Source: Frigoribacterium sp. PvP032 (GTDB lineage: Bacteria > Actinomycetota > Actinomycetes > Actinomycetales > Microbacteriaceae). Taken from it: a stretch of 64,000 bases of DNA. Both the position numbers and the translations under genes were made by a program. The stretch is taken from the NCBI RefSeq assembly GCF_017833035.1, contig NZ_JAFIBM010000001.1, positions 2,108,001-2,172,000 on the forward strand. The letters are read 5' to 3'. The notes under the pieces are model-generated. The model was not told the origin of the DNA, searched no databases, and saw only the letters and a program-made list of their open reading frames with translations. Positions 621-16,485 of this stretch are shown piece after piece (within the stretch, counting starts at the first letter, position 1; every line of letters starts with the position of its first letter).

Positions 621-647
621 GTGCCCGATAGCCGATCCCTGACGGGG
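621..647 (+). repeat. Dispersed intergenic hairpin motif, copy 1
   Basis: Reads GTGCCCGATAGCCGATC followed by CCTGACGG. It starts 12 bases after the PASTA-like gene. The CGAT/ATC pairing around a five-base loop is weaker here than in other copies. Confidence 0.7.
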
Positions 648-733
648 AACCTGGGCGAACCCAGGAACCCCGCCATCCACAGCGGGGTCTGGGCTGCCCT
701 ACGCAACGTAGACGTGTGTCGGCCCAGCACCTA

Positions 734-756
734 GTGCCCGGTGAAGGATCGGGCAC
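734..756 (+). repeat. Dispersed intergenic hairpin motif, copy 2, strongest hairpin
   Basis: Arms GTGCCCGGT (734-742) and ATCGGGCAC (748-756) pair over nine positions with one G-T wobble around the loop GAAGG. It is followed by CGGACG, like the 3' part of other copies. It lies 113 bases after copy 1 with no gene between. Confidence 0.7.
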
Positions 757-849
757 CGGACGCGTTATCGACTCAAGATCATCGAGAGTGCGAGCCCGTT
801 CAGAGGGTGCTCGTGCCCCCAGCGGCCGCGCCATCGCTAGGGTCAGGAC

Positions 850-1248
850 ATGGACGAGGCCGACAGAGAACTCCTCCGCGAGGCCGAGGCTGAAGTGGCA
901 GCGCTGCCCCACCGCAACCCCCTCACCGACCTGCCACCCCGCCCGGGCGGCGGCCCCGCTGCCGAGACCGCGCCGACCGGTCGGGCTCGCTTGCTCGCCC
1001 CGCTGACCCTCATCGTCTGCTTCGTCACGGCCTGTGCCGAGGGTTCGTGGCTGTGGTTCTCCGCCGCAGACTGGACCTCCTCGTTGTGGTTCGCCGTGCC
1101 GTTCCTCCTGGTTGCCTCGATCGTGCTTGCAATCGTCGCCGGAGCTCTGGGCGGCCGCGCTGGCCGGTGGGCAGGAGTCTGCGGTGGCATCGCCGTCGTA
1201 CCGCCCGTGTGCTTCGTGGTGTCGCTACCCCTGGCGCTCTTCGCGTAG
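850..1248 (+). CDS. Small integral membrane protein
   Basis: 132 residues with a charged, proline-rich cytosolic N-terminus (about residues 1-45) and three hydrophobic segments: LLAPLTLIVCFVTACA, LWFAVPFLLVASIVLAIVAG and VCGGIAVVPPVCFVVSLPL. GGTCAGGAC precedes the ATG. No family is recognised. It sits alone on the + strand between hairpin-motif copies at 734 and 2401, together with the DUF3515 lipoprotein that follows it. Confidence 0.6.
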   Translation: MDEADRELLREAEAEVAALPHRNPLTDLPPRPGGGPAAETAPTGRARLLAPLTLIVCFVTACAEGSWLWFSAADWTSSLWFAVPFLLVASIVLAIVAGALGGRAGRWAGVCGGIAVVPPVCFVVSLPLALFA

Positions 1249-1377
1249 TTCAACCCGGCTAGGGCCGATCAGCTGCACGATGATGCCCGGGCGGCGTCTG
1301 TTTGACGGGGTGCGCTGTGGGCGTCGAAGGCGCCGACGCGGAAGGCCGGGGTACGGTCTCGCCATGGGGGAAGACGA

Positions 1378-1857
1378 ATGCGAGCTGTAACTGCTGTGGT
1401 GGTGGTGGTGGTGGTGGTTGGGGCGTCACTGGCAGGATGCGCGGCGACTGTCCCTATGAGCTCAGCCGACGAGGCCAACGCAGTGGGGTGCGCGCAAGTC
1501 ACAGTGCATCTTCCTGAGACCATCGCTGAGACCGAAGTGAAACGTGAAACAGACGCCCAGGCCACTGGTGCTTGGGGTGAGCCCGCATCTGTCCTGCTTC
1601 GCTGCGGGGTCACAGAGCCAGGTCCCACGGATCTGCCGTGCTACACGATCCAGGGAGTGGATTGGATCGTCGACTCCCCACCAGACGACCCTGACACCGC
1701 CATCCTGACCACCTATGGCCGCTCTCCAGCCGTTGAGGTCGTCTTCGACACAACGACGCTGACGGGCGCTAGCGTCATGGGAGACCTAGCCGATGCCGTC
1801 GGGTACCTTCCGGCCAACGGGCGCGCATGCACGAGCGCCGAAGACTTAACCTCCTGA
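1378..1857 (+). CDS. DUF3515 lipoprotein, copy 1
   Basis: 159 residues. An export signal with an unusual run of valines, encoded by a GTG trinucleotide repeat, ends in the lipobox LAGC, so the protein should be a surface lipoprotein. The mature part has the DUF3515 pattern: WGEPASVLLRCGV, CYTIQGVDWIVD and TTYGRSPAVEVVF. A GGGGGAAGACG ribosome site precedes the ATG. The function of the family is not known. A close paralogue lies on the other strand at 6837-7331, and similarity extends through the C-terminus (TGASVMGDLADAVGYLP). The valine repeat could vary in length without frameshift. Confidence 0.75.
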   Translation: MRAVTAVVVVVVVVGASLAGCAATVPMSSADEANAVGCAQVTVHLPETIAETEVKRETDAQATGAWGEPASVLLRCGVTEPGPTDLPCYTIQGVDWIVDSPPDDPDTAILTTYGRSPAVEVVFDTTTLTGASVMGDLADAVGYLPANGRACTSAEDLTS

Positions 1858-1957
1858 GCCAGGCGTACGGATGCGAAATCGCGGCACGAGCCTTTCGTAG
1901 CCAGCCCTGACGTGAGCCGCCTCTGATGGCTTGGCGCCGTAGACCGACTCCCTGCGT

Positions 1958-2335
1958 CTAGAGCGGGCCAACCCCAACCCGAAGGGCCGGCAGCGACGTG
2001 GTGAGCAACAATGCCGCCGTTCCCAGGCTCACGACGGCTAGGGGCCGGCGTGTTTCGCGTCGGATGCAACTGGCGATCGCGAGGCCAAGGGAGGTGGCGG
2101 ACATGATGCCGACAGGTACCCAGGCCGCGAGAAAGATCGGGTAGAGGAACAGCCAGCCTTCGTTGTCCCAGAGGACGACCGGGGCCCACATCGTGGCGTA
2201 CAGGATGACGTAGGAGATGAGAGCCACAAGGGCCACGATGCCGGCTGCCACGGCAAAGGAACTGGCGGCCACGAGACGAGACGGGCCGGTACGCGGTTCA
2301 TGGGTTTGGCCAGGCCGCTCCGGGGTGGTCGTCAC
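1958..2335 (-). CDS. Small integral membrane protein
   Basis: 125 residues: a polar N-terminus (about 1-18), then three hydrophobic segments (residues about 20-48, 60-85 and 96-115) separated by short charged loops, including RRETRR. No recognisable family. It is the last gene before hairpin-motif copy 3 when read in its own direction. A variant motif (CCCGATGCGGCGTCA) lies just upstream of its start, at 2354-2368. Confidence 0.55.
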   Translation of the reverse strand: MTTTPERPGQTHEPRTGPSRLVAASSFAVAAGIVALVALISYVILYATMWAPVVLWDNEGWLFLYPIFLAAWVPVGIMSATSLGLAIASCIRRETRRPLAVVSLGTAALLLTTSLPALRVGVGPL

Positions 2336-2353
2336 GATCGAAAGCTAGCAGTC

Positions 2354-2368
2354 CCCGATGCGGCGTCA
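2354..2368 (+). repeat. Variant motif CCCGATGCGGCGTCA, copy A
   Basis: A 15-base identical word found again at 4550-4564, also between genes of this region. It shares the CCCGAT start of the dispersed hairpin motif but not the ATCGG arm. Confidence 0.45.
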
Positions 2369-2400
2369 ACCGCCGGTCGACACCTCAGCATCGATTACTG

Positions 2401-2431
2401 GCGCCCGATAGGGGATCGGCTGCCGGACAAG
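2401..2431 (+). repeat. Dispersed intergenic hairpin motif, copy 3
   Basis: GCGCCCGATAGGGGATCGGC followed by TGCCGG. CCGAT and ATCGG form a perfect five-pair stem around AGGGG. It lies between two minus-strand genes. Confidence 0.7.
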
Positions 2432-2435
2432 GGGC

Positions 2436-2804
2436 CTAGGTGAGGCTCGCCTTGATGTCGTGCTCGAGCCTGGTGAAGCGCTCTTGATAGACGGCGTAGT
2501 GCGCCCTGGTTGCGACCAGGTAGCTGCCCTCGTCGCTCGTCATCTTCAGGCGCACTGAGCTGCCCGCTCCTTCAGAAGCGATGGACCACGTGACGACCAT
2601 GGGGATGCGCTTCTTTCCCGCCTGAAGCAGCCCACCTAGAAGCCGGTAGGCAGTTCGAGATCCGAGGTTAACGCTGCCTTCGTGCGCCTGTACTACAGGC
2701 TTCTGCGCCACATCGCGAAGCAGCTCAACTAGCCGTCTGGCGGCCATGTCCGGGGGGAGACCCGTTGAAATGTCGGCGGTGTGCTGGGCGGGCTGGATCG
2801 GCAT
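2436..2804 (-). CDS. Hypothetical protein
   Basis: 122 residues, with no signal peptide or membrane segment. The chain alternates predicted helices (MAARRLVELLRDVAQ, ARAHYAVYQERFTRLEHDIKASL) and strands (RIPMVVTWSIAS, SVRLKMTSDEGSYLV), which suggests a small alpha/beta domain of the kind that binds hydrophobic ligands. I do not recognise the family. It is bracketed by hairpin-motif copies at 2401 and 2842, 4 and 37 bases from its ends, the tightest one-gene interval in the region. Confidence 0.55.
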   Translation of the reverse strand: MPIQPAQHTADISTGLPPDMAARRLVELLRDVAQKPVVQAHEGSVNLGSRTAYRLLGGLLQAGKKRIPMVVTWSIASEGAGSSVRLKMTSDEGSYLVATRAHYAVYQERFTRLEHDIKASLT

Positions 2805-3129
2805 GCCTATTTGTAGCGCACAAGACGAGCCTGGGTAGGAAGTGCCCGATAGACGATCGCTCAGTGGTCCATTGGCCTTCGCGACGTCCCGTTGACGTCG
2901 TGGCCTTTGTTTTCAGGGTCTTCGCCTTTCGCCGCGTCTTCCGTGGTGGTGATGCCCCGGTTCTAGCCGTGTTTCTTCCCCCGGTACGGAGCGCGATTCC
3001 AAGCGCTAGGCCAAGCGGTAGTCCTGCAAGAGGGATAGCCGCGCCATCCAGAGAAACCAGCAGGAAGATGCCGACCGTGACGCCAATGGCGCAGAGAAGA
3101 TAAATCTGTTGGTTGCTTCGAGGCGGCAC
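2725..3129 (-). CDS. Two-helix membrane protein whose frame runs on through a hairpin motif
   Basis: Starts at a GTG (3127-3129). The first 45 residues look genuine: YLLCAIGVTVGIFLLVSL and AIPLAGLPLGLALGIAL are membrane helices, followed by a lysine/arginine-rich tail (RKTRRKAKTLKTK). The frame then continues through the hairpin motif at 2842-2867 and into an antisense-like frame of the next gene, overlapping it by 80 bases. The last 50 or so residues are therefore probably not original. One reading is that the natural 3' end was lost at the motif. The true protein may be about 75-85 residues. Confidence 0.4.
   Translation of the reverse strand: MPPRSNQQIYLLCAIGVTVGIFLLVSLDGAAIPLAGLPLGLALGIALRTGGRNTARTGASPPRKTRRKAKTLKTKATTSTGRREGQWTTERSSIGHFLPRLVLCATNRHADPARPAHRRHFNGSPPGHGRQTAS
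2842..2867 (+). repeat. Dispersed intergenic hairpin motif, copy 4
   Basis: GTGCCCGATAGACGATCGCT followed by CAGTGG. CGAT/ATCG stem around AGACG. The longer frame of the membrane gene at 2725-3129 reads through it. Confidence 0.7.
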
Positions 3130-3335: not shown

Positions 3336-3917
3336 ATGACGAACAGAAACCTCGACGACATGCTGAACAGGAGTCGCCCGGCTACTGCCGAGGCCGATCC
3401 AGATTTGCTGTTCCTCATCGCCCCGATGTCCGAGGCTGCGCGCGCAGAAGCCAAGAAGGTGCGGGTTAGGCCACGCGCGACGCCCGCGTTCCGGCGGCCA
3501 AGTCGCCCTCTGCTCGCCGTGGCGCTGGGAGCCTCGCTCCTCCTCGCAGGCGGCGCCCTCGTCGAGGGCATCCAGCCAAACTACGAGGCGCGCACCACGA
3601 TCGTGCTTAGCCTGCCGGGGGACCCGTTCCTCGACGACGGCGACAGCGCGCCGGCGGAATGCTTGGCCACGCTCATCTTCGACGTCTCAGGAGGCGCGGC
3701 AGAACAGGACAAGGTGGAAGCGGCGGTCCAAGGACACGACTGGTCGGGGCTCGAGTCTCAAGCCGCCGCGCTCGTGCAGAGCGACCGTGGTGACCCCGAC
3801 CTAAACAAGAATGTTGTGGCAACCCTCGATGCGGGCGTCCGCGCAACCCTCGACCCTCAGCTCGTCGGCTTCGCCCAATACGGCGGTGTGGGCCTGAGAT
3901 GCGAGGTCGCCAAGTGA
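3336..3917 (+). CDS. Single-pass membrane protein, possible partner of the following sigma factor
   Basis: 193 residues from the ATG at 3336. Residues about 1-60 are cytosolic and rich in charged residues (LDDMLNRSRP, EAARAEAKKVRVRPR). One membrane helix follows at about 62-80 (LLAVALGASLLLAGGALVEG), then a secreted C-terminal domain with two cysteines. Topology and position next to a sigma-like gene fit an anti-sigma or surface-sensor role, but no zinc-binding anti-sigma motif is visible, so this is inference. Its stop lies 19 bases inside the next gene's longest frame, so the two are probably translated together. Confidence 0.55.
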   Translation: MTNRNLDDMLNRSRPATAEADPDLLFLIAPMSEAARAEAKKVRVRPRATPAFRRPSRPLLAVALGASLLLAGGALVEGIQPNYEARTTIVLSLPGDPFLDDGDSAPAECLATLIFDVSGGAAEQDKVEAAVQGHDWSGLESQAAALVQSDRGDPDLNKNVVATLDAGVRATLDPQLVGFAQYGGVGLRCEVAK

Positions 3918-4492
3918 GCTTCGGTCGCGGGGGGAGCCCTGGACTGGGCGGCAGCACCAGTCGTCGCGAGACACCGACGAGACCGCCCGAATCCGTGGAT
4001 ACGCATATCACGTCCACGATCGACGCGTCGTCGCAGGATCTGCTCGGTTATTTCTTGCGCCGAGTGTCATCGCCGGAAGACGCCGCCGACCTCCTCGGTG
4101 AGACGTTGCTCGTCCTCTGGCGCCGCGCGGACGACCTGCCCGCCGAGCCGCTCGAGGCGCGCTTATGGATGTTCGGCATCGCGCGACGCGTTCTGTCCAC
4201 ATACCGACGCGCGGGTCTACGTCGCGTCGCCCTGGCTGACCGGCTTCGGCTGGAGCTTGAGGTGCGCACATCTGCGTCTGAGCGATCGACCGAAGGCGAG
4301 GAGCTGCATGCTTTGCTCCTCGAACTGGACCTACTCGATCAGGAGATCATCCGCCTGGTGCACTGGGAGGGTTTCTCCCTTGCCGAAGTCGCGACCATCT
4401 TGGCTAGGAGACCGGGCACGATTCGGAGTCGTTACGCGCGTGCGCGCACGTCTCTTCGTAAAGCCATCGACGATCAAAACGGTGGCCTCTGA
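3899..4492 (+). CDS. ECF-like RNA polymerase sigma factor
   Basis: 197 residues from the ATG at 3899; a GTG at 3995 would give a 165-residue form lacking a low-complexity leader. Region 2 is seen in YFLRRVSSPEDAADLLGETLLVLWRRADDLP with the following RLWMFGIARRVLSTYRR. Region 4 is seen in LLLELDLLDQEIIRLVHWEGFSLAEVATILARRPGTIRSRYARAR, a typical sigma-70 helix-turn-helix. It should direct RNA polymerase to a small regulon. The usual order is sigma first, then anti-sigma; here the membrane gene comes first and overlaps. No target promoter can be identified. Confidence 0.75.
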   Translation: MRGRQVSFGRGGSPGLGGSTSRRETPTRPPESVDTHITSTIDASSQDLLGYFLRRVSSPEDAADLLGETLLVLWRRADDLPAEPLEARLWMFGIARRVLSTYRRAGLRRVALADRLRLELEVRTSASERSTEGEELHALLLELDLLDQEIIRLVHWEGFSLAEVATILARRPGTIRSRYARARTSLRKAIDDQNGGL

Positions 4493-4638: not shown

Positions 4639-4665
4639 GTGTCCGATAGCCGATCGCCTAGCGCG
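4639..4665 (+). repeat. Dispersed intergenic hairpin motif, copy 5
   Basis: GTGTCCGATAGCCGATCGCC followed by TAGCGCG. CGAT/ATCG stem around AGCCG. It is downstream of both flanking genes, which converge here. Confidence 0.7.
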
Positions 4666-4700
4666 CTTGGAATTCTCACCGATCGGCCGATCGCGCGGGT

Positions 4701-4946
4701 TCAATCGTGGACTCGCGGTTTGCCTGGCACGGTCTCGTCGTCTCGGGCGCGTTTGTTTGGGAAAAGGCAGAAGACGGTAATCGATAGGAGAACCAGTAGC
4801 TCGAGAGCCTTCCAGACGGACCATCCGTGGTCAACGGTTGTCCGGTACGTCCCTACGAGGATGACGACGATGCAGACGGCTGCAAGTGCGCGTCGCTTGG
4901 GAACGGGCAGCTTGCGCACAAGCCGCTGCATCTGGCTCTCGGTCAC
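4701..4946 (-). CDS. Small two-helix membrane protein
   Basis: 81 residues: basic N-terminus (RLVRKLPVPKRR), a first helix AALAAVCIVVILVGTY, a short loop, a second helix LELLVLLSITVFCLF and a charged tail. Both ends are probably cytosolic. No known family. It is bracketed by hairpin-motif copies at 4639 and 4992, so it forms a one-gene interval of about 350 bases. Confidence 0.5.
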   Translation of the reverse strand: MTESQMQRLVRKLPVPKRRALAAVCIVVILVGTYRTTVDHGWSVWKALELLVLLSITVFCLFPNKRARDDETVPGKPRVHD

Positions 4947-4991: not shown

Positions 4992-5017
4992 GTGCCCGTT
5001 AGGGGATCCTCTATCGG
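4992..5017 (+). repeat. Dispersed intergenic hairpin motif, copy 6
   Basis: GTGCCCGTTAGGGGATCC followed by TCTATCGG. Here the pairing arms are CCGTTAG and CTATCGG (one mismatch) around a GGATCC-containing loop, a longer fold than in other copies. Confidence 0.6.
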
Positions 5018-5087
5018 ACTTCGCCAGCCCCTCCTTGACGCAGTGATAAGCGTCAGGTTGGACCGATCAGTCTTCTACGGTGTGGCC

Positions 5088-5519
5088 ATGAGGAATAGAC
5101 GCGTCGTGGCCTTGGCTCTGATCGCGGGCCTAATGCCCCTTGCCGCTTGTAGTCATCAAGGGGTCCTGACGCTCGATGCTGCAGAGGCGCAGATACCTAA
5201 CTGCACGACCTTTGACGACGTGGCGGTTGAGACCCTGAACGAGAAAGCTTCCTGTGCCCCAGGAGGATCACGCCTTGTCTTCCCCGATGGTGTTGTTTTC
5301 GAATTACCCGACGAAATCGGCGCCGGGCTCGATCAGCCCGGCGGGGTCGTCGGGCCGGTGTACACATACGTAGGGGTGGGAATTTACGGCGTCTTCGCTA
5401 CGCGCAAGTCCGACGACTGCAAGACCGTCGAGGAGTGGGGCACAGCAGAGGCGCGGGAACGCGTGTATGAAGCTTTCGGAGATGAGTACGGGTGCAAGGG
5501 ACCCAATTCACTACCGTGA
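5088..5519 (+). CDS. Putative lipoprotein
   Basis: 143 residues from the ATG at 5088, chosen because it gives a clean export signal (MRNRRVVALALIAGLMPLAAC) with lipobox LAAC. The mature part carries four further cysteines (NCTTF, ASCAPG, DDCKT, YGCKG), suggesting two disulfides in an oxidising extracellular setting. No family is recognised. It is preceded by hairpin-motif copy 6 and is probably transcribed alone. Confidence 0.6.
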   Translation: MRNRRVVALALIAGLMPLAACSHQGVLTLDAAEAQIPNCTTFDDVAVETLNEKASCAPGGSRLVFPDGVVFELPDEIGAGLDQPGGVVGPVYTYVGVGIYGVFATRKSDDCKTVEEWGTAEARERVYEAFGDEYGCKGPNSLP

Positions 5520-5645
5520 CGGCCACCTCACCAGGCGCGCCCATGGCATATCTGCGGCGGGTCGCTCGGGATGGCGTCGGCCATGTCCGCCTCTTCTCGA
5601 CAACGTGCCTGTACGCGACCGTTGGTTCATTCGTAAAGTTACGAC

Positions 5646-6194
5646 ATGGGCGTGGTTGGGGGGCGAGCTGGAAGTTCGCGAACTGCTGGCGCTGATCGCG
5701 CCCTCAGGGAGGCCTTGTTGTCCGGTGCGGTGCTGGGGGGCCTGGCCTTCTTGGGGATTGCAATGGTGAATGACGACCTGGCCGGTGAGAGTGCGTCCTT
5801 TTCTCTTGTGGGCGTCGTGCTCAGTGCTCTCGTGGGTTGCTTCATCGCTGGTGTTGCCGCGTGCACGGGGCTGGTCGTCATGCGCTTGGTGAGTCCGTAC
5901 AAGCGGCAGGGACGAGTCGGGGTCTGCGCTGGGTCTCTTGCCGCTGGGCTCGCCGCGTGGTTGTTGACTCGAATTCTTATCGTGCCCGAGCTGCTGTTGC
6001 CCAACCTTCTTCCTGCGGTTGCCGGATGCGTCGGTTGCGGGATGGCCGCAATCATCCTGACTCGCTCAGGGCAGGCGGACTCGGTGAGCCTCTCAAAAGC
6101 TCGAGGAACCCGCATGATCCGCTGTGGACAGCCGACATGGACGTCCTGGCTGCACGTCAGTGTTCGGGAGATGATCCGTCAGACGACCGGCTAG
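5646..6194 (+). CDS. Four-helix membrane protein
   Basis: 182 residues. Hydrophobic segments lie at about 24-42 (ALLSGAVLGGLAFLGIAM), 53-82 (two-part, through CFIAGVAACTGLVVM), 93-112 (AGSLAAGLAAWLLTRILIV) and 115-137. There is no obvious ribosome site; TAAAGT at 5634-5639, six bases before the ATG, could be a -10 element giving a leaderless message. The gene converges with the next membrane gene, with a four-base overlap of stop regions. Family not recognised. Confidence 0.5.
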   Translation: MGVVGGRAGSSRTAGADRALREALLSGAVLGGLAFLGIAMVNDDLAGESASFSLVGVVLSALVGCFIAGVAACTGLVVMRLVSPYKRQGRVGVCAGSLAAGLAAWLLTRILIVPELLLPNLLPAVAGCVGCGMAAIILTRSGQADSVSLSKARGTRMIRCGQPTWTSWLHVSVREMIRQTTG

Positions 6195-6667
6195 CAAGCT
6201 GGCGGTGTCTCTCCTCGCGCCAACCGACGCAAGGTCAAGCCGGCCGTGACGCCGGCGCCTAATGCGGCCATCAGACCGATGACCACTCCGGAAAAGACTG
6301 CCTCGGTGAGGATGCCGACAGCCATGCCTGCTGAGATCCCGACAATTGCCGCTGCGGCCGCTGCGGCTAGCGCGTGGCTTCTCGACCTTCCCCAACGGGG
6401 ACGCTGTCGCCACAGCGACGCACTGATGAGTCCGGCGACAGCCCCGAGGAGGGCGAAGGCCACGGCAGCAGGAACTGCATAGACAAGGGAAATCAAGATC
6501 CATTCGGCGATCCCGCCGCCGTCCAGTCCGCTCACGGCGCCCCATACGACCACCCAGAGGATGGGCAATATCAGCGCGCTTCCGGCGCCGACCAGGGCTC
6601 CCGTAGAGACCAAGACGCGTCCGTCCGACCGGTGTGCGCGCGTCGGACGCTTCAAAGCAACGCTCAT
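6191..6667 (-). CDS. Four-helix membrane protein
   Basis: 158 residues: basic N-terminus, then hydrophobic segments at about 20-45, 56-80, 98-120 (an alanine run, AAAAAAAAIVGISAGMAVGIL) and 123-145, with a short RRLARGE tail. General layout resembles the convergent gene at 5646-6194 (similar size, small-residue-rich helices), but sequence identity is not evident. The function is unknown. Confidence 0.5.
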   Translation of the reverse strand: MSVALKRPTRAHRSDGRVLVSTGALVGAGSALILPILWVVVWGAVSGLDGGGIAEWILISLVYAVPAAVAFALLGAVAGLISASLWRQRPRWGRSRSHALAAAAAAAIVGISAGMAVGILTEAVFSGVVIGLMAALGAGVTAGLTLRRLARGETPPAC

Positions 6668-6800
6668 GACGACTCCTCTTTCCCAGCAGGTTAGGGCCTG
6701 CCTACGGCACGAGTATCCCCAGAATCAGGTGCTTCAGCGCGTGCTGCTGGCCCCAGAGGTGTGTGCAGCATCAGAAACGAGCCCCCTCTGCGGGTGACCC

Positions 6801-6827
6801 GTGCCCGATCGGGGGCTCGCTGACCGC
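6801..6827 (+). repeat. Dispersed intergenic hairpin motif, copy 7 (divergent)
   Basis: GTGCCCGATCGGGGGCTCGC followed by TGACCGC. Keeps the GTGCCCGAT start and GCTnGC end, but the central spacing is changed. It lies ten bases before the stop end of the second DUF3515 gene. Confidence 0.5.
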
Positions 6828-6836
6828 TACGCCCGG

Positions 6837-7331
6837 TCAGGAGGGCAAATCTTCGGCGCTCGTGCAAGCTCGTCCAGTCGTTGGGAGATATCCGACAGCA
6901 TCAGCGAGGTCTCCCATGACGCTCGCTCCTGTCAGCTTCGTTGTACTGAAGATCACCTCCACGGCGGGGGAGCGGCCATAGGCGGTCGAGATGGCGCTCT
7001 CGGGGTCGTCCGTCGGTGAATCGACGATCCAGTCGACTCCCTTGATCGTGTAGCAGGGCAGATCCGTGGGACCTGGTTCTGTGGCACCGCAGCGAAGCAG
7101 GACGGACGTAGGTTCTCCCCAGGCGCCAGTGGCTTGGGCATCTGTCTCGCGACGCGTTTCGGTTTCACCCATGGAGTCAGGAAGATGCACGGTGACCTGC
7201 GCGCACTCCACCGAGTTGGCATCGGCGGCAGGGCTCATGGGGACCGCTGCTGCGCATCCTGCTAACGACACCCCGGCGATCGCTGCTGATCCCACAGCTA
7301 CGAGCGGTCTTGCCCGGTTCCGCAACATCAC
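6837..7331 (-). CDS. DUF3515 lipoprotein, copy 2
   Basis: 164 residues (GTG at 7331; an ATG follows at 7326-7328). Export signal with lipobox LAGC, then the same DUF3515 pattern as the gene at 1378-1857: WGEPTSVLLRCGA, CYTIKGVDWIVD, TAYGRSPAVEVIF and an almost identical C-terminus. The start overlaps the stop of the upstream TlpA-like gene, so the two are translationally coupled. Copy 1 has no such partner. The pairing with a thiol-disulfide protein and the two conserved cysteines in each copy allow the guess that TlpA acts on it. Confidence 0.75.
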   Translation of the reverse strand: MMLRNRARPLVAVGSAAIAGVSLAGCAAAVPMSPAADANSVECAQVTVHLPDSMGETETRRETDAQATGAWGEPTSVLLRCGATEPGPTDLPCYTIKGVDWIVDSPTDDPESAISTAYGRSPAVEVIFSTTKLTGASVMGDLADAVGYLPTTGRACTSAEDLPS

Positions 7332-8026
7332 TCAGGCGTCGCTGCCGCTGTCTTGACGAGTGCTCGCAGGATGGACGGATCGACTGCTCCGAGTACGCGA
7401 GCGCTGACACGCCCCTCGGGGTCGAGAACAAACGTCGCGGGGGTCGCATTGGGGGCCGTCTTGCCAGCGAACGCGAGCTGGACACTGCCGGTGTTCACGT
7501 CGATGGCGGTCGGGTAGGTGACGTCGAATTCTTGGGTGAATGCGTCGGCGGTGTCGGGTTGGTCCCTGACGTTGACGCCGAGGAATGTGGCGTCATCGGC
7601 CACCTGCTCGCTGACTGCTTGAAGATTTGTTGCTTCCATCCGGCACGGGACACACGTGGCGTACCAGAAGTTGATGACGGCGACTTTCCCCTGGTAGTCA
7701 GCCGCCGTGATCTTGCTGCCGTCACTCAGCTCGGAGTCGAACTCAATCGGTTCGTCCCGGTCCTCGGGCGCGATTTCGGTCACGAGCTGTTCGGCCGAGA
7801 TGTATCCCTTGCCGTCGCCCCACTGCTGTTCGAGACCTTCAGCCGAGGTGCATCCCGTCACGGCTGCACTGGTGGCGAGCAGTAGGGCCGGAAGGGCTAA
7901 GAGTCGACGTGTTCGCACGCGTGAGAATAACTCGTCGAACCTGCAGACGAGCAGCGTCTCGATGGAGATGGTTCCGGGGCCGCGGAACGCCGACGTGGAT
8001 TCAGCAGCGCTCATCCACGTGCCCAT
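7328..8026 (-). CDS. TlpA/ResA-type thioredoxin lipoprotein
   Basis: 232 residues in the longest frame. An in-frame GTG at 7918 (residue 37) is a better start because it leaves a normal export signal (VRTRRLLALPALLLATSAAVTGC) with the lipobox at residue 59 of the long form. The thioredoxin fold contains the redox motif CVPC at about 125-128 within NFWYATCVPCR, then the cis-proline region TPATFVLD. Such proteins reduce disulfides outside the membrane, often for cytochrome c maturation. No ccdA/resB/ccsA genes lie nearby, and the stop is coupled to a DUF3515 lipoprotein, suggesting a different client. Confidence 0.8.
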   Translation of the reverse strand: MGTWMSAAESTSAFRGPGTISIETLLVCRFDELFSRVRTRRLLALPALLLATSAAVTGCTSAEGLEQQWGDGKGYISAEQLVTEIAPEDRDEPIEFDSELSDGSKITAADYQGKVAVINFWYATCVPCRMEATNLQAVSEQVADDATFLGVNVRDQPDTADAFTQEFDVTYPTAIDVNTGSVQLAFAGKTAPNATPATFVLDPEGRVSARVLGAVDPSILRALVKTAAATPE

Positions 8027-8105
8027 CGCCTCAGATCGCTGCTAGGCGCGATAGCCCCTCTTGGAGGCAACCTGAGAGACACCAACGGCTCAACCGATCG
8101 TCCCT

Positions 8106-8130
8106 CGTCCCGATAGTCGATAGTTGTGCG
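8106..8130 (+). repeat. Dispersed intergenic hairpin motif, copy 8 (partial)
   Basis: GTCCCGATAGTCGATAG then TTGTGCG. It matches the first half of the motif and lies between the divergent TlpA-like and HIT genes. A possible reversed fragment lies just upstream, at about 8036-8056. Confidence 0.45.
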
Positions 8131-8159
8131 CGACACGTGCAGCGGGTTGAGTTGCAGGC

Positions 8160-8546: not shown

Positions 8547-8573
8547 ATCGCCCGATAAAGAATCGGTCATTGG
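8547..8573 (+). repeat. Dispersed intergenic hairpin motif, copy 9
   Basis: ATCGCCCGATAAAGAATCGG followed by TCATTGG. Perfect CCGAT/ATCGG stem with an AAAGA loop that differs from every other copy. It sits between the converging HIT gene and nucleoside-transferase remnant. Confidence 0.7.
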
Positions 8574-9020: not shown

Positions 9021-9048
9021 GTCTGTCCGATAGGCGATCGGCAACCGG
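9021..9048 (+). repeat. Dispersed intergenic hairpin motif, copy 10
   Basis: GTCTGTCCGATAGGCGATCG followed by GCAACCGG. Perfect CCGAT/ATCGG stem around AGGCG. It lies between the pseudogene start and the next minus-strand gene. Confidence 0.7.
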
Positions 9049-9066
9049 TGCTTTGCCGGGGGGCGG

Positions 9067-9630: not shown

Positions 9631-9884
9631 GGAGTCAGGTTAGGGCGTCACCGGATCTGCGTAAGTCAGCCTGGATGATGATCTCCGTGGCTGTAGTGGA
9701 ATCGGCACCGGTGTCCGTTTGTCGCTTTATCACCGATCGCGATAGGCCGCGTCTCCCTAGGTCCTGCCTGCGCGTCCGACTCCATGGAGGCAACAGTCCC
9801 CCGGCACAGGGACGTAGTCGCCCGCCTGTAGAACGCTTCACGACCACCCGCGCGTACCCGACGGCCGGTTGCTGACTGAACACC

Positions 9885-10496
9885 TCATGCCCTGGCCCCT
9901 AAGGATTCGGGGGTCGCCCGCCGGCGAGGTCTCAGCGTCCGACTGGTCGCGAAGAGGCAGGCACTCAGGAATGCCCACCCGAAGAAAGCTGGCTCGACAC
10001 AGACCGTCGCCAGCAGTCCGAGCCCGAGCAAGGCCGCACCGAGGGCGACGGGCAACGGTCGACGCGACAGCGTGGCGATCACCGTCCCGAGAACGGCCGC
10101 GGCAACGCTGGGCACCAGGGGCAACACGGTTGCGGCGATCAGGGGCGATGCCGGGTACTCAGCTCGGCTCGCCACAACGGACCAGGTCGCAGCAAGGGCC
10201 AGTGCGAAGACGGGAGTCGCCGCCGCAAGGCCGGCGACCTGGTGACTTCTCGTCAGCGCCGTCCGGCCCTCGTTCCCAACGAACGATCGGTGCCAGCCAG
10301 CGAGGCAGACCAAGAACGCCGCGACCGCAGACAGGAAGGCAGGCGCAACGACGGCCGATCCGTCGATGCTCACACCGCGCTCCTCCACGGCCTCCCGCAC
10401 GACCAGCACCGGGCCAGCCGCGAGGACCACGCCCATCAGGGGGCCTGCAACCAGGAAGGCCGCAGAAAGGCGAGCCCGCGAGTTGTCACTGGTCAT
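9885..10496 (-). CDS. Polytopic membrane protein
   Basis: 203 residues with six hydrophobic segments at about 10-32, 46-68, 84-108, 117-141, 146-164 and 168-186, connected by short loops; the C-terminus is arginine-rich (RTLRPRRRATPE). No recognisable transport or enzyme motif. The 254 bases downstream, to 9631, contain only a degenerate, possibly reversed motif remnant near 9731-9750. Confidence 0.55.
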   Translation of the reverse strand: MTSDNSRARLSAAFLVAGPLMGVVLAAGPVLVVREAVEERGVSIDGSAVVAPAFLSAVAAFLVCLAGWHRSFVGNEGRTALTRSHQVAGLAAATPVFALALAATWSVVASRAEYPASPLIAATVLPLVPSVAAAVLGTVIATLSRRPLPVALGAALLGLGLLATVCVEPAFFGWAFLSACLFATSRTLRPRRRATPESLGARA

Positions 10497-10818: not shown

Positions 10819-11356
10819 TGAGGAGAGCACCGGTCTTCCGTAGACGGGAACGCTTGGGAATCTCGGTGGTGGTTCTTCTGACCTACGTGTAGACGTCGTA
10901 CGTCTCGTACGCCATCGTCTCAGTCTTGCTCGACGGTCGAGGGCTTCTGCAAGCTCTTGTTGTCGGGCTCAACCCTGGTTGGGCTCTGCTGCCACTCGGC
11001 TTCTTTGCAGCACTGCTCGGAGCAGCCCTGTTCGGAGTGCTGGGTCGTGCACGACGCTTCAACAGACGGGCGGCGTTAGCCGTCATTGCTGTCCTCTCGA
11101 CTGTCGGAGGGTTACGCCTCATCGCTTTCGCGGGCGAAGCCGCCTTGGTGACGGGCGGCACCGTCCAGAACGTGACACCGGCGGCAACTTCGTGCACCTC
11201 ATCACCGAGATGCTGGTCAGTCTGCTCGTCGTCGCAGCAACCGCGTTGGCAGCTTTCGTGGCAGCGAGGTATCTCGTCACAGATGACAGATCCGGCAGTG
11301 CCCGTCAGACGATCTTTCGACGCGACGGTTGCGACGTCGATCCTCGAGGTGGGTAG
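10819..11356 (+). pseudogene. Broken membrane-protein gene (stop plus frameshifts)
   Basis: An ATG at 10819 opens MRRAPVFRRRERLG in one frame. Hydrophobic sequence continues in a second frame (ISVVVLLTYV), hits TAG at 10890-10892, and resumes as YVSYAIVSVLLDGR, then three more helices up to about 11160. From about 11180 the membrane-like sequence moves to a third frame (LITEMLVSLLVVAATALAAFVAARYLVTDD) that ends at 11356. Helix-like segments spread over three frames point to a decayed gene. An alternative is a shorter intact protein from TTG at 10926. Confidence 0.5.
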
Positions 11357-11400: not shown

Positions 11401-11823
11401 ATGAACACGGGGAAGTGGGGCCGGTTGGCGATAGTGCTCCTGGCGGCCGGGGCGCTAGCGGGCTGCTCCGTCGCTACAACGAATGACGTCTTTGCGGACG
11501 AGCAGGTCACTTCGGACACGCTGCCGCAGGTCGAGAGTGTGGTGCTTGAGGATCTAGTGCCGGAGTCGGCGCGATACCTCGGCGAGGCGGAGGGCTCTCG
11601 GTACTGGGCCGCGCGGAACGCGGATGACGAGTTCTGCGTCCTCACCCAGGTTGTCGAAGGCGAACCTGAGGACATGATGTCCGCCTGCAGCCCGGGCGAT
11701 GGGGACACGCTCACAAGCTCGTTGAGCGGTGGACCCTCAGCGTCCTGGTCGGCCGTTGAAAATCCGACTGTGCCGGATGGCAGCACGCTGCTTCGCGGCC
11801 ACCTCGTGGTGTCGCCCCGCTGA
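11401..11823 (+). CDS. Putative lipoprotein
   Basis: 140 residues from the ATG at 11401, preceded by GGATGAGGAC. Export signal with lipobox LAGC, then an acidic mature domain with one cysteine pair (EFCVLT, SACSPG). The segment GSRYWAARNADDEFCVLTQV resembles small secreted proteins of actinomycetes in which a cell-surface domain follows a flexible linker. Its function is not known. It converges with the next membrane gene, with hairpin-motif copy 12 between them. Confidence 0.6.
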   Translation: MNTGKWGRLAIVLLAAGALAGCSVATTNDVFADEQVTSDTLPQVESVVLEDLVPESARYLGEAEGSRYWAARNADDEFCVLTQVVEGEPEDMMSACSPGDGDTLTSSLSGGPSASWSAVENPTVPDGSTLLRGHLVVSPR

Positions 11824-11921: not shown

Positions 11922-11949
11922 CGTCTCGGTAGGCGATCGCTTAGCGGTG
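11922..11949 (+). repeat. Dispersed intergenic hairpin motif, copy 12
   Basis: CGTCTCGGTAGGCGATCGCT followed by TAGCGGTG. CGGT/ATCG pairing around AGGCG uses a wobble. It contains the stop codon (11941-11943) of the minus-strand gene. Confidence 0.65.
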
Positions 11950-12468
11950 ATCAATCGTCGTAGCTCGCTTCTCGGCGCGTGATTTTTGTGACGGGGTGGC
12001 AGGCGTTCCGGTTCTGGTGGTGGAGAACAGCAGGGAGAGCAGCGCGAGCGCGCTGATGCCGCTCACGCACAGCAACACCAAGTGCCAGGGGGTGCGGAGT
12101 CCACCGGAAACTCCGAAGGCGTCGGCGACGTCCATGCCGAGCGGGAAAGCGGCGAAGAACGAGACGGGGGCTCCCAGGACCAGCAAGCCGAGGTGCAGCG
12201 TCGCGATGGCGCTCAGCGAGAGCCGAGCCCGACGGCCCATGGTGCTGGCCGCTACTGAGAGCCCTACCCCAATCAGTCCCACAATCACGAGGGACCAGGT
12301 CAGCGCGGTGAGATCGCTGCCGAAGTCATCGAGTGCCTGTGCTATCTCGGTTCTCGTAAGGTCCGGGACTGCTGCTCGTGGCTCCAACCAGCCCAGGGAC
12401 ACGACCATGACGCCGGCGTAGAGGGCGACAAGAAGAGGTCCGCCGACGACAACGGCACGTACTGGCAC
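11941..12468 (-). CDS. Four-helix membrane protein
   Basis: 175 residues from a GTG at 12468, chosen because upstream sequence in frame is low-complexity and basic. Hydrophobic segments: about 5-27 (VVVGGPLLVALYAGVMVVSLGW), 52-75, 88-112 and 128-150. An acidic extracellular loop (DLTRTEIAQALDDFGSDLTALT) separates the first two. The tail is basic. The family is not recognised. The stop lies within a hairpin-motif copy, so any rearrangement at the motif would alter its C-terminus. Confidence 0.5.
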   Translation of the reverse strand: MPVRAVVVGGPLLVALYAGVMVVSLGWLEPRAAVPDLTRTEIAQALDDFGSDLTALTWSLVIVGLIGVGLSVAASTMGRRARLSLSAIATLHLGLLVLGAPVSFFAAFPLGMDVADAFGVSGGLRTPWHLVLLCVSGISALALLSLLFSTTRTGTPATPSQKSRAEKRATTIDHR

Positions 12469-12596
12469 GATGTCGACCGTATGGCCCGCTTGTTCGCCGA
12501 CGCGTCCATCGGGCGGTTGATCCTGTGCCGGCAGACGATCGTTCTGCGGTCGCAACTGCGCGGACCCGCGGGCTATTTCACGGCCAAGATGAGGCG

Positions 12597-12851
12597 ATGA
12601 CAGAGCTGCAGGGCGCCGCCGTGGTCTTCGCACCCCTGTTCGCGATCTTCGGGGTCTGCTTCATCGTGTTCCACCAGCACATCTCCGACGCCGCTCGCAG
12701 GGCCTACGAGGAGCAGGGGCGGCGGATCGGCCCCCAGACCCAGTCGCCAGGGCTGATGATCGTCGGCGGGATCGGCATGCTGATCATCTCGACTGTGATC
12801 GTGCTCTACGCCTTCACCGACGTGTTTCCTCCTCCTCCTCCTCCGCAGTAG
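12597..12851 (+). CDS. Small two-helix membrane protein with polyproline tail
   Basis: 84 residues from the ATG at 12597 (GATGAGGCG upstream). Helix 1 is AAVVFAPLFAIFGVCFIVF, then a cytosolic loop (HQHISDAARRAYEEQGRRIGPQTQSP), helix 2 GLMIVGGIGMLIISTVIVLYAF, and a tail ending in six prolines encoded by a CCT repeat. The loop pattern is common in small actinobacterial membrane proteins of unknown role. It starts 129 bases from the divergent membrane gene, and a hairpin-motif copy begins 18 bases after the stop. Confidence 0.6.
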   Translation: MTELQGAAVVFAPLFAIFGVCFIVFHQHISDAARRAYEEQGRRIGPQTQSPGLMIVGGIGMLIISTVIVLYAFTDVFPPPPPPQ

Positions 12852-12868
12852 CTCTCGTCCGGAGCGCT

Positions 12869-12898
12869 GTTCGATGGGGGATCGGCCAGCGAGCCGGA
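12869..12898 (+). repeat. Dispersed intergenic hairpin motif, copy 13
   Basis: TGTTCGATGGGGGATCGGCC followed by AGCGAGCCGG. CGAT/ATCG stem around GGGGG. It follows the polyproline-tailed gene. Confidence 0.65.
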
Positions 12899-13010
12899 AC
12901 GAAATGCATCTGCGACGGGACGTTCTGTTGGTGAAGAAAGCGACGAGCCGAGCGAAAGGAAAGAAGGGCCTGACACCCGATGGTTCAACAGGACATGAGA
13001 CGCTGCCGCG

Positions 13011-13349: not shown

Positions 13350-13455
13350 AACTGTCCGGCAGCGATGGATGCTCGAGTCGCTCAGGGTCTCGCCGACATG
13401 AACGCTCCTGGCCGCCGGGTCCCGCGGGGATCGGTCGGGTTGTCAGCGTTGAGGG

Positions 13456-13791: not shown

Positions 13792-13797
13792 CTGCCG

Positions 13798-14778
13798 TCA
13801 GGGCGTGGGGTCGAGGAGGCGCCCGGTCCAGTCGCGCAGGGCGGTGACGGCCCGGCGCGACAGGGTCGCTCCCGGCATCATGCTCGCCGACCCGTGGAAC
13901 GCTCCCGGCCACACGTGCAGCTCCGCCTGCACGCCGGCCGCCCAGAGCGCGCTGGCCCAGGTGACGGTCTCGTCGCGGAACACCTCGGCGCTGCCGCAGT
14001 CGACGTACGCCGGCGGAAGGCCCACGAGGTCGGTCGCGCGGCCGGGAGCGGCGTAGATCGACACGTCGCCGCCGCCGCGACGGTCGCCGAGGTAGGCGTC
14101 CCAGCCGAACCGGGTCATCTCGCGGTCGGCGACGCCCACCCCGTCGAACTGCCGGGCGGAGACGGTCGCGTCGCGGTCGTCGAGCATGGGGCTGACGAGC
14201 ACCTGCCCCACGACGGCCGGCCCCTGTCGGTCGCGGGCGAGGAGCGCCGTGCCCGCAGCGAGCCCTGCCCCGGCGCTCTGGCCGACCAGGACGATCCGCT
14301 CGGGGTCGACGCCGAGCTCGTCGGCGTGCTCGGCGACCCAGACGAGGCCCGCGTAGCAGTCCTCGACCGGGTACGGGTCGGGGTGCTCCGGGGCGAGACG
14401 GTAGTCGGGGCTGACCAGGACGACGTCGTGCACGAACAGCCAGTCGTCGTACGAGTCGAGGTTGCCGAGGTGGTGGCCGAACATCATGCCGCCGCCGTGG
14501 ATCGCGTAGGCGCAGGCCGCCGTCCCGGTGCGGCCGATGCGCTGGATCACGGCGAGGGCGATCGGCTCGCCGAGGTGCCCGGGCACGGTGATGCTGCGCC
14601 TCTCGAGACCGCGGGCGCGCAGTCCTTCGTCGAGCTGCGCCTCCGTCATGTCCAGCTGTCGCATGCGCGGCAGCATCTCGGCCTCGAGGCGGAAGTGGCC
14701 GCGGGCGTCCATCGCCTCCAAGAAGGGCACGAACTCGGGGTCGAACGGCGGGCGAGGCAGGGCGGTGGTGTCAGGCAC
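13798..14778 (-). CDS. Alpha/beta hydrolase of the hormone-sensitive-lipase type
   Basis: 326 residues. The oxyanion-hole motif HGGG is at about 94-97 and the nucleophile elbow GQSAGAG has its serine at about 168. The acid is probably in DCGSAEVFRDE and the histidine in FHGS near residue 300. These enzymes hydrolyse small esters in the cytosol; substrate cannot be told. The start overlaps the stop of the MFS gene by eight bases, so pump and hydrolase form an operon. This pairing suggests handling of an ester-containing toxic compound. Confidence 0.85.
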   Translation of the reverse strand: MPDTTALPRPPFDPEFVPFLEAMDARGHFRLEAEMLPRMRQLDMTEAQLDEGLRARGLERRSITVPGHLGEPIALAVIQRIGRTGTAACAYAIHGGGMMFGHHLGNLDSYDDWLFVHDVVLVSPDYRLAPEHPDPYPVEDCYAGLVWVAEHADELGVDPERIVLVGQSAGAGLAAGTALLARDRQGPAVVGQVLVSPMLDDRDATVSARQFDGVGVADREMTRFGWDAYLGDRRGGGDVSIYAAPGRATDLVGLPPAYVDCGSAEVFRDETVTWASALWAAGVQAELHVWPGAFHGSASMMPGATLSRRAVTALRDWTGRLLDPTP

Positions 14779-16318
14779 GAGAGGTCTCCTGGGTGGTGGG
14801 GGCGAGAGTGGTGGGAACGAGAGTGGTCGAGGGGGCAGGTGCAGTGGTGCTGGGGGCCAGGTCGGCAGTTCGTGCCCGGAGCATCCCGACCACGACGAGC
14901 ACGGCGGCGACGACGGCGAGGCCGAGCCCGGCGACGGTGAGGGCGTCCTCGAAGGCCGCGAGCCGCGGGGCCGTCCACGGGGTGGTCGTGATGCTCCCGT
15001 TGACGAACGCCGCGACGATCGTGCCCGCGGCGGCGACCGCGGCTCCTCCCGCGAGCTCGCTGGAGGTGTCGACTAGGGCAGCGCCGACCGAGGTGCGGTC
15101 GGCGGGGAGGCCCGTGAGCACGGAGGCTCCGGCCACGACGCCGACGACGCGCATGCCGGCGGCGACGAGCACGAGAGCCACGAGCACCCAGCCGTACCCG
15201 TGACGGCTCAGGGCGCCGAAGACGGCGAGGCCGGACACGACCGAGGCCGCGCTGATCCACGCCGCCCGGCCGAGGCCCACCCGCTGCACGAACGGCCCCA
15301 CGAGACGACCTCCGGCCAGGAGCACGACGACCTGCGGCAGCGTGCCCACGGCGGCGAGGGCCGGCGGCCAGCCCCAGGCGAACTGCAGCTGCAGCGTCAC
15401 GAGGTACGACAGCCCGGCTACGGCGAGGCCCGACGCTGCCTTGAACGCGAGGCCGCTCGACACCAGGGGGCGGGCGAGCAGGTGCACGTCGACCACCGGG
15501 TGCCGCGCCGTCCGCAGGCGCACGACGAACCCGGCCCCGCACGCGACGGTCAGCACGACGGCGGCCCACCCCCACGAGGAGGCGGTGGCCGGCCCGACGA
15601 GGACGGTCGGCGTCACGAGCAGCCCCGCCACGGTCGCGGTGCCGAGCAGTGCCCCGCCCACGTCGACGGGGTCGCTCCGCAGCCCGGCTGCGTCATCTCG
15701 AGCGACGCCGCACCGGATACCGACGAACGCGAGCACGGCGATCGGCACGTCGGCCAGCAGCAGCACCTGCCACGGAGCGGCGGCGAGCACGAACCCGCCG
15801 ACGGTCGGGCCGACGGCGAGGCCGACGAGGCCCGCGGTCGAGATCACCGTGAGGGCCCGGACACGGAGGCCCTCGTCGTCGAACAGCCGGAACGCCAACG
15901 CCATCGACCCTGGGGTGGTCATCGCTGCGGCGACGCCCGTCAGCACCCGGACGGCGATGAGCTGCTCCGTGGTCGTGACCGCCACGGTGGCGAGGCTCGC
16001 CACGGCCAGCAGCGCGAGGCCCGCGAGCATGACGCGGCGGCGCCCCACGCGGTCGGCGACGGCGCCGAAGAGCAGCATGAGCCCGCCGAACGCGACCGCG
16101 TAGGCGCCCGACACCCACTGCAGGCCGGTCGTCGAGGAGCCCAGCTCGCGACCGATCGTCGGCAGGGCGACGTTGAGGACAGAAGTGTCGAGCATCTCGA
16201 ACAGGAACACCGCGGACAACCCGGCCAGGGCGATCCACGCATCGGACAGCCGCGGAGGCGCGTCGCCAGCACGCAGCCGACGGCGGGAGAGAGAGGTACT
16301 GGGGGACACGAGATGCAC
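14771..16318 (-). CDS. MFS multidrug efflux transporter, DHA2 (14-helix) type
   Basis: 515 residues with about 14 membrane segments. Typical motifs: LDTSVLNVALPTIGREL in helix 1 (motif D1), GAVADRVGRRRVM (motif A) between helices 2 and 3, and LAVGPTVGGFVL (motif C) in helix 5, which marks drug/proton antiporters of the EmrB/QacA group. It should export hydrophobic compounds using the proton gradient. It is the first gene of a two-gene operon with the hydrolase. No regulator gene is adjacent; an inverted repeat lies 110 bases upstream. Confidence 0.87.
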   Translation of the reverse strand: MHLVSPSTSLSRRRLRAGDAPPRLSDAWIALAGLSAVFLFEMLDTSVLNVALPTIGRELGSSTTGLQWVSGAYAVAFGGLMLLFGAVADRVGRRRVMLAGLALLAVASLATVAVTTTEQLIAVRVLTGVAAAMTTPGSMALAFRLFDDEGLRVRALTVISTAGLVGLAVGPTVGGFVLAAAPWQVLLLADVPIAVLAFVGIRCGVARDDAAGLRSDPVDVGGALLGTATVAGLLVTPTVLVGPATASSWGWAAVVLTVACGAGFVVRLRTARHPVVDVHLLARPLVSSGLAFKAASGLAVAGLSYLVTLQLQFAWGWPPALAAVGTLPQVVVLLAGGRLVGPFVQRVGLGRAAWISAASVVSGLAVFGALSRHGYGWVLVALVLVAAGMRVVGVVAGASVLTGLPADRTSVGAALVDTSSELAGGAAVAAAGTIVAAFVNGSITTTPWTAPRLAAFEDALTVAGLGLAVVAAVLVVVGMLRARTADLAPSTTAPAPSTTLVPTTLAPTTQETSRA

Positions 16319-16425
16319 TCCTTCTGGGAAGAAGTGGCGACTCGTTCGATGCCGCGTGCGGGTGCGTCGCAGAGCGCGACGCCTTTTACCTCAGTGACGT
16401 GCACGATACACGGGCAGCTGCCAAA

Positions 16426-16446
16426 GGAGAACTCCAGCAGTTCTCC
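16426..16446. promoter_or_regulatory. Perfect inverted repeat upstream of the MFS operon
   Basis: GGAGAACT and AGTTCTCC separated by CCAGC. It lies between the MFS start and the VOC stop, both minus strand, so it could be an operator for the pump or a terminator for the VOC gene. Confidence 0.45.
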
Positions 16447-16457
16447 CGCTCACGCAG

Positions 16458-16485
16458 GTGCCCGACAAGGGATCAGCGGCCGGGC
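16458..16485 (+). repeat. Dispersed intergenic hairpin motif, copy 14 (last seen)
   Basis: GTGCCCGACAAGGGATCAGC followed by GGCCGGGC. The stem is weakened (CGA/ATC region changed). It is the rightmost copy found in the window. Confidence 0.6.

Follow-up and report, generated by a model that had tools for sequence, protein, structure and literature searches.

What are the short inverted repeats that recur between small, unrelated genes at one locus of Frigoribacterium sp. PvP032, and what moves the genes that they separate? The locus lies at the left end of a 64,000-nucleotide stretch (C1:2108001-2172000, the window) of a genome of 3.33 Mb in a single contig. A preliminary description, made from the letters of the window alone, had read the repeats as the sites of a cassette array served by a recombinase that does not use attC sites. 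This reading is supported by the clustering of the sites, by a recombinase gene at the head of the array and by joins at the centre of the site. The proposal, with a probability of about 0.83, is that these are chromosomal gene-cassette arrays and that the repeats are where the small serine recombinase encoded by the head gene makes its crossovers. Position, a shared arm motif and co-occurrence suggest the link between enzyme and site.

Sites in the window and in the genome

To avoid circularity, sites were detected with a position weight matrix trained on other Frigoribacterium genomes only (257 unique sites, without heads) at a threshold score of 12 or more. This gave 16 sites in the window, all in positions 1-17000 and all scoring best on the + strand (Table 1). 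Between 17001 and 64000 the matrix found none at this threshold, in agreement with the earlier statement that copies are missing from 17 to 64 kb. In 100 first-order Markov sequences of 17 kb the mean was 0.13 sites and the maximum one.

Twelve of the 14 positions listed previously were recovered (621, 734, 2401, 2842, 4639, 4992, 8106, 8547, 9021, 11922, 12869 and 16458). Those at 6801 and 10673 fell below the threshold, the former being without the central AT, and four sites (about 308, 11296, 12522 and 12964) were added to the list. The 18-mer core put forward at that stage, with three mismatches allowed, matched five times against 0.31 expected, one match being the minus-strand reading of the site at 4641. 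The core and its 'CTAGCGG' extension are best read together as a pair of imperfectly inverted arms with AT in the middle, the extension being the variable right arm (NYNAYCGG). Similarly, the claim that all copies read the same way stands for the matrix, but the sites are near-palindromes, and five of them (centres 324, 748, 2415, 5006 and 12538) look symmetric when the arms are scored separately. That the genes beside the sites face both ways was correct.

A search of the whole genome showed that close matches are clustered and not evenly spread: all 18 (a 17-base core with up to two mismatches allowed) lie in C1:2108.6-2119.3 kb or C1:932.5-951.3 kb. The first cluster belongs to array A, which starts at C1:2107040, 0.95 kb left of the window, and the second to array B (C1:929882-954460, possibly up to 965 kb). 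The G+C content is 0.62-0.66 in window positions 1-14 kb compared with 0.69-0.76 in 18-56 kb; the last 8 kb of the window, which is free of sites, is also lower (0.64-0.68).

The head of the array

Both arrays of the genome start with a variant site, a leader of ~130 bp and an open reading frame (ORF) for a small serine recombinase of 189 residues. In array A the head site is centred at C1:2107054/5 and the recombinase gene is at C1:2107185-2107754, 0.25-0.95 kb left of the window. Tandem GGGTTCTC-type repeats were also seen immediately left of this head (L005:19005-19040).

A tyrosine recombinase or a transposase had been suggested at first; the gene that heads the arrays encodes a small serine recombinase instead, with the Pfam domains PF00239 (resolvase N-terminal) and PF02796 (HTH_7). 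Its nearest match in the PDB is the DNA-invertase 4m6f (E 6e-33), which we take to be Gin, and then gamma-delta resolvase. Residues R7, S9, R45, D67, R68 and R71 align with the catalytic positions of gamma-delta resolvase.

At least 86% identity over at least 150 residues gave 46 head-type recombinase matches, which cover all 16 genomes of the genus that were examined; 42 of them are at least 93% identical. The genome of PvP032 has two copies of the head recombinase at E ≤ 0.001, in a search that did not extend to other serine recombinase families. From the 46 matches 33 arrays were taken, 20 as chosen stretches and 13 as the search returned them, the latter read at most 10.6 kb past the head.

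The sequence GGTCGTTCATCGGGACA is exact in 30 of the 33 heads, with a variable left flank; G002_1 and G013_2 are one base off, and G011_2, with its start 59 bp ahead of the gene, has a different leader. In a gap-free alignment of 28 of the 33 heads, the leader contains a conserved block with TGTCCCGCAAAAATGCCCGG at -50 and could hold accessory sites of the res type. The centre of the head site is GT in all 28 called heads, against AT in the cassette sites. At the sequence level, arrays begin with a recombinase gene that has a form of the site in its own upstream region.

At the 3' end of the recombinase gene, identity between the 33 arrays stops at the last codons, several gene types come next, and in some arrays the next gene overlaps the recombinase stop codon. 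A site at this 3' end was considered for the divergence there and rejected, the arms not fitting by eye.

Anatomy of the site

The site is ~28 bp long and imperfectly palindromic, with the consensus GGGTGCCCGATAGGCGATCGGTCACCGGGC (336 sites in the 33 arrays). With 15.3 bits, the left arm is better conserved than the right, which has 9.8 bits; the centre is AT in 288 of 308 cassette sites. As had been remarked of the GTTRRRY core, neither it nor a RYYYAAC box is present. The matrix called 299 of the 336 sites +, and arm-by-arm scoring of reversed sequence gave no site of any kind.

A conserved element of 96-97 bp with right-type arms at both ends occurs in varied contexts and reverses site polarity. 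It was found in 14 of the 33 arrays (G001_1, G001_2, G002_1, G004_1, G007_1-3, G008_1, G009_2, G010_1, G012_1, G013_1, G013_2 and G014_3) and also in the plasmid locus L108 near 40.3 kb.

Cassette behaviour and the crossover point

Pairwise comparison of the 297 + sites gave homology on the right only for 289 pairs, on the left only for 90, on both sides for 21 and on neither for 42892; 664 of the 43956 pairs had intermediate similarity and were left unclassed. As many right-only pairs are heads (174 of the 289 are head-free), the crossover test was redone without heads at a flank identity of at least 0.9, which uses 57 of the 174 right-only and 53 of 89 left-only pairs.

In the 57 right-only pairs (76 distinct sites) identity equals the background at positions -4 and -3 and reaches 0.88-1.00 over -1 to +9. 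In the 53 left-only pairs (73 distinct sites) it stays at 0.83-1.00 as far as +1 and is down to background from +3 onwards. The pairs share sites, so they are not independent, and within that limit the homology switch is confined to -3..+3, about 6 bp, which is the GATC around the AT. Homologous recombination between 28-bp repeats would spread the switch over the repeat; the switch is seen only at the centre, within 6 bp or less, and this explanation was therefore rejected.

The 33 arrays contain 300 intervals between sites, with a median of 752 bp. Single linkage at 70% coverage placed 242 of them (head intervals and those below 120 or above 5000 bp were left out) in 153 families, 43 of which have more than one member; 12 further matches were inverted. 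The neighbour of a family member was the same in 10 cases and different in 123 on the right, and the same in 10 and different in 150 on the left. One cassette, of 1414 bp, is shared by five arrays of four genomes at 97-100% identity, and its two ends always fall at the same AT positions. In several cassettes the palindrome AACGATCGTT precedes the site by a few bases, as at the 3' ends of the 1414-bp cassette and of a 762-bp one and at C1:933.6 kb.

At a flank identity of at least 0.8, two filled/empty pairs were found in total. In one, a 465-bp cassette is present in G004 and missing in G006, with a hybrid site present and one base differing 16 bases left of the centre. In the other, 4336 bp with six internal sites are present in array B and missing in G006, again with a hybrid site. 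The sister genomes display cassettes that were gained, lost and reshuffled, with joins at the site centre. These comparisons show that the intervals behave as cassettes (right half-site, cargo, left half-site), which are gained, lost and transferred from array to array and from species to species by joining at the AT.

Distribution

Sites were present in all 16 Frigoribacterium genomes examined, with 16-74 strand hits (near-palindromes are counted on both strands); the reversed pattern gave 0-2. The head recombinase was likewise present in all 16. In a sample of the family, 42 of 299 genomes match the site with at most two mismatches, against 6 for the reversed pattern, and clear site clusters are seen in a few other genera. 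All ten genomes of this sample with a recombinase at least 85% identical gave site hits; a further 37 have a recombinase at E ≤ 1e-60, and among them eight gave any.

With the Frigoribacterium matrix, 32 of 58 loci from other genera were found to have a site at a distance of 122-150 bp upstream of the recombinase start; reversed sequence of the 58 loci gave three hits. The array is downstream of the recombinase in Frigoribacterium, in three Curtobacterium loci and on one Frigoribacterium plasmid, and six Arthrobacter-group loci (L042, L045, L056, L065, L073 and L078) have 5-9 sites upstream of the recombinase gene. A site of Rothia koreensis (L040:5646) and one of Brevibacterium yomogidense (L087:9261) share 92% over the 60 bases to their left and are unrelated to their right; most other cross-locus pairs in that comparison were heads.

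Proposed mechanism and alternatives

In the proposed mechanism, recombinase dimers would bind both arms of a site and two sites would synapse. Both strands would be cut with a 2-bp stagger at the AT, and the subunits would rotate and the ends be rejoined. Between direct repeats this would excise a cassette as a circle with one site, and the reverse reaction would insert it. The GT head site together with the conserved leader may be the enzyme's own res-like regulatory site. Exchange between a GT head and AT cassette sites would then be mostly blocked. This would account for the fixed place of the Frigoribacterium head on the left margin of the array, downstream of which the cassettes turn over. 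As the genes face either way, cassettes probably carry their own promoters. Insertion at an attI-like site at the head was considered and rejected: only four of the 336 Frigoribacterium sites are upstream of a head (139 kb upstream and 567 kb downstream were read). Because of these few upstream sites and the GT centre of the head, no attI is claimed.

Several observations weigh against this proposal. The same GT/AT mismatch of the overlap, by barring exchange between head and cassette, would leave the entry of cassettes unexplained. The well-studied Tn3 resolvase needs accessory sites and favours resolution (PMC9943657), and the cassettes show a site I only. Three of the 33 heads (G006_2, G015_1 and 'G005like_16', which by its coordinates belongs to G011) have no cassette site in the stretch read, which for one is 3.7 kb, and a further serine recombinase, 40-44% identical, is encoded in 8 of the 16 genus genomes. 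Of the 47 family-sample genomes with a recombinase at E ≤ 1e-60, 29 gave no site hit; the recombinases of these 29 are all below 80% identity. Conversely, the site-rich genomes G019, G046 and G268 gave no recombinase at E ≤ 1e-60 (for G019, among the 11 of 22 candidates scored). The array is upstream of the recombinase in several of the Arthrobacter-group loci, and so are the sites on the Curtobacterium plasmid D35, where their orientation is mixed. Orientation is also less uniform than the matrix implies: 37 of the 336 sites were called '-', and 82 of 318 AT-centred sites look left-left or right-right when the arms are scored separately. Such sites would be the expected leftovers of inversion through a palindromic AT overlap.

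Some of these points would be accounted for if the sites were true site-specific cassette sites on which another enzyme acts in trans, either another serine recombinase or XerC/XerD, the head gene resolving its own element only. The difference between the GT and AT centres, the second serine recombinase in half of the genus genomes and the site-bearing family genomes without a close recombinase match all suit this explanation. It is nevertheless unlikely: the right arm of the head site, when reversed, is the same arm motif as the left arm of the cassette site, the cassette matrix itself detects the site upstream of the enzyme gene, and the near-identical head recombinases described above cover all 16 genus genomes. 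As for a host tyrosine recombinase, just two proteins of the genome match PF00589, one of them XerD-like and one XerC-like, and the distance to the nearest array is 0.24 Mb for one and 0.56 Mb for the other. Their gene neighbours, read by eye, are parA- and dprA-like.

These two proteins bear equally on an unusual integron, with IntI and attC-type sites, for which the cassette logic, the polarity of the array and the mobile small genes would speak. Both score best on the XerD/XerC equivalogs (328.7 of 329.6 and 291.8 of 335.15 bits, both below cut-off) and stay at 118 and 98 bits, far short of the 265 that the integron integrase model requires. A tyrosine recombinase or integron origin was rejected on this count and because the head gene is PF00239/PF02796. 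The sites, with their central AT, have none of the boxes (RYYYAAC ... GTTRRRY) by which attC sites are known. The IntegronFinder 2.0 survey (PMC9024848) reports no complete integron in Actinobacteria. An integron is hardly conceivable here.

Repetitive extragenic palindrome (REP)-like elements and shared terminators had been named as the main alternatives in the preliminary description. Dispersed repeats of these kinds, or operators, would be rearranged by ordinary homologous recombination. Short near-palindromes between genes, with unrelated flanking genes, are what such repeats would look like. Against them stand the narrow switch of homology at the centre instead of across the 28-bp repeat, the one orientation of most sites while the cargo genes face both ways (125 with the sites and 151 against, from our own gene calls), and the confinement of close matches in this genome to two recombinase-headed arrays. 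This makes dispersed repeats very improbable, and the head-encoded serine recombinase is preferred in what follows.

Chromosomal position and cargo

Array A lies between an MFS-type gene on its left and an NADH dehydrogenase-like gene on its right, both named from sequence, the latter 1.8 kb from the last site. The two genes are 19.3 kb apart in G000, 27.8 kb in G012 and 23.8 kb in G013. At the same locus 58-116 bp separate the bounding genes in six sister genomes, and the gap is about 2.2 kb in the remaining seven of the 16. Array A has one cassette family in common with the G012 array at this locus and one with the G013 array. By this comparison, array A fills an intergenic space in which six sister genomes have no array; the exact attB could not be drawn from the 58-116-bp gaps, which are too diverged.

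The cargo in the window comprises two DUF3515 proteins, an ECF sigma factor, a HIT protein, an AhpC/TSA thioredoxin-like protein, a cupin and many small proteins without a family (Table 1). The two DUF3515 genes are on opposite strands. Array B carries an alpha/beta hydrolase, a HAD phosphatase and a helix-turn-helix (HTH) regulator. No transposase was found among 28 proteins run against Pfam, in which no search was aimed at TnpA or terminal repeats. The cassette 8562-9037 (475 bp) has the same length in G012_1 and occurs inside longer intervals of three further arrays. The 113-bp interval without an ORF has relatives of the same length in G006_1 and G004_2, where they adjoin the 1414-bp cassette.

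Table 1 Features of array A in the window (window positions; site scores from the position weight matrix)
Position	Strand	Feature	Remarks
1..296	+	DUF4265 gene, 3' end	gene after recombinase gene, first ('head') interval
311..338	+	site, centre 324/325	score 19.3
366..608	+	80-aa ORF, cassette 324-635	no Pfam family
622..649	+	site, centre 635/636	score 27.4
636..748		113-bp interval without ORF	inverted repeat CCTGGGCGAACCCAGG
735..762	+	site, centre 748/749	score 23.5
749..2415		interval with three genes	850-1248 (+), 1378-1857 (+, DUF3515), 1958-2335 (-)
2402..2429	+	site, centre 2415/2416	score 32.0
2436..2804	-	122-aa gene, cassette 2415-2856	no Pfam family
2843..2870	+	site, centre 2856/2857	score 34.8
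3336..4492	+	two overlapping genes, interval 2856-4653	protein gene without assignment (3336-3917), ECF sigma factor gene (3899-4492)
4640..4667	+	site, centre 4653/4654	score 26.4
4701..4946	-	81-aa gene, cassette 4653-5006	no Pfam family
4993..5020	+	site, centre 5006/5007	score 30.2
5007..8120		interval with four genes, perhaps more than one cassette (motif near 6801 decayed)	5646-6194 (+), 6191-6667 (-), 6837-7331 (-, DUF3515), 7328-8026 (-, AhpC/TSA thioredoxin-like)
8107..8134	+	site, centre 8120/8121	score 16.8
8160..8534	+	HIT-domain protein, cassette 8120-8562	
8549..8576	+	site, centre 8562/8563	score 25.0
8567..8911	-	gene, cassette 8562-9037	weak nucleoside 2-deoxyribosyltransferase match (below cut-off)
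9024..9051	+	site, centre 9037/9038	score 29.8
9067..10496	-	two genes without assignment (9067-9630, 9885-10496), interval 9037-11312	degenerate motif near 10673
11299..11326	+	site, centre 11312/11313	score 15.7
11401..11823	+	gene without assignment, cassette 11312-11936	
11923..11950	+	site, centre 11936/11937	score 23.1
12525..12552	+	site, centre 12538/12539	score 18.5
12597..12851	+	84-aa gene, cassette 12538-12881	92% identical stretch in G013_2 interval
12868..12895	+	site, centre 12881/12882	score 24.2
12967..12994	+	weak site, centre 12980/12981	score 12.0
16459..16486	+	last site detected, centre 16472/16473	score 19.4
18262..19743	-	NAD(P)H dehydrogenase-like gene	right bound of insertion, named from sequence

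Comparison with known systems

The arrays resemble integrons in being arrays of small genes with one site per cassette and a recombinase gene at one end, in sharing cassettes between species in different order, and in having some cassettes without genes. They differ in the enzyme, a small serine recombinase and not a tyrosine recombinase, and in the site, which is ~28 bp and AT-centred and not an attC. Also unlike integrons, the central dinucleotide of the head site differs, the recombinase is inside the first interval and the genes face both ways; integron cassette genes mostly face one direction and are served by the Pc promoter. No IntI lies beside the array, attC boxes are absent and the cassette genes do not share one direction. 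Cassettes are exchanged at their sites as in integrons, an analogy of behaviour and not of descent. The system is integron-like in its working, yet it is not a member of the integrons.

The pdif/dif modules of Acinetobacter are similar in that genes framed by short sites are shuffled without an integron integrase. There the reported enzymes are XerC/XerD of the host, acting at dif-like sites that are mostly on plasmids, whereas here a serine recombinase heads the arrays and the sites are inverted arms around AT.

The resolvases of the Tn3 family, such as gamma-delta resolvase, together with Sin and the DNA invertases, belong to the same enzyme family and have the same catalytic residues. The head recombinase has the aligned catalytic S and R residues and the C-terminal HTH of small serine recombinases, and the array sites have the inverted arms of their crossover sites, with the homology switch at the central AT; a 2-bp exchange is predicted. 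As in the res of Tn3 and gamma-delta, a site I is upstream of the gene and is followed by a conserved region, possibly the accessory part of a res. According to PMC9943657, Tn3 res consists of one crossover and two accessory sites and Sin res has one accessory site, and Tn3-type resolvases resolve cointegrates. The arrays differ from these in that type-I sites stand alone, repeated between cargo genes.

In the staphylococcal cassette chromosome, too, a serine recombinase (Ccr) puts blocks of genes into the chromosome. Those elements are large islands, and composite tandem elements are possible. The Ccr models are 442-558 positions long, compared with 189 residues for the head recombinase, and the median interval here is about 0.75 kb.

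In the literature no description of cassette arrays of a small serine recombinase was found, in a search that covered subscription papers and bioRxiv poorly, so that absence is not proven. It seems likely that the arrays represent a class of cassette capture unrelated to integrons: its enzyme would be a serine recombinase of the resolvase type, the substrates would be repeated sites consisting of site I only, and GT heads would be kept apart from AT cassettes. This class would be present in all 16 Frigoribacterium genomes, with diverged sites in Curtobacterium and the Arthrobacter group (Micrococcales), and would fill the niche left by integrons in Actinobacteria. If so, it is chromosomal in every Frigoribacterium species examined and found on a plasmid as well. 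It raises testable questions about how a resolvase-type enzyme was turned into a cassette shuffler, how cassettes enter and what roles the small cargo genes have; if confirmed, the GT and AT site pairs of one enzyme could be used for DNA assembly. Beside integrons, the textbook platform, there would then be a second and chemically unrelated solution to the shuffling of cassettes.

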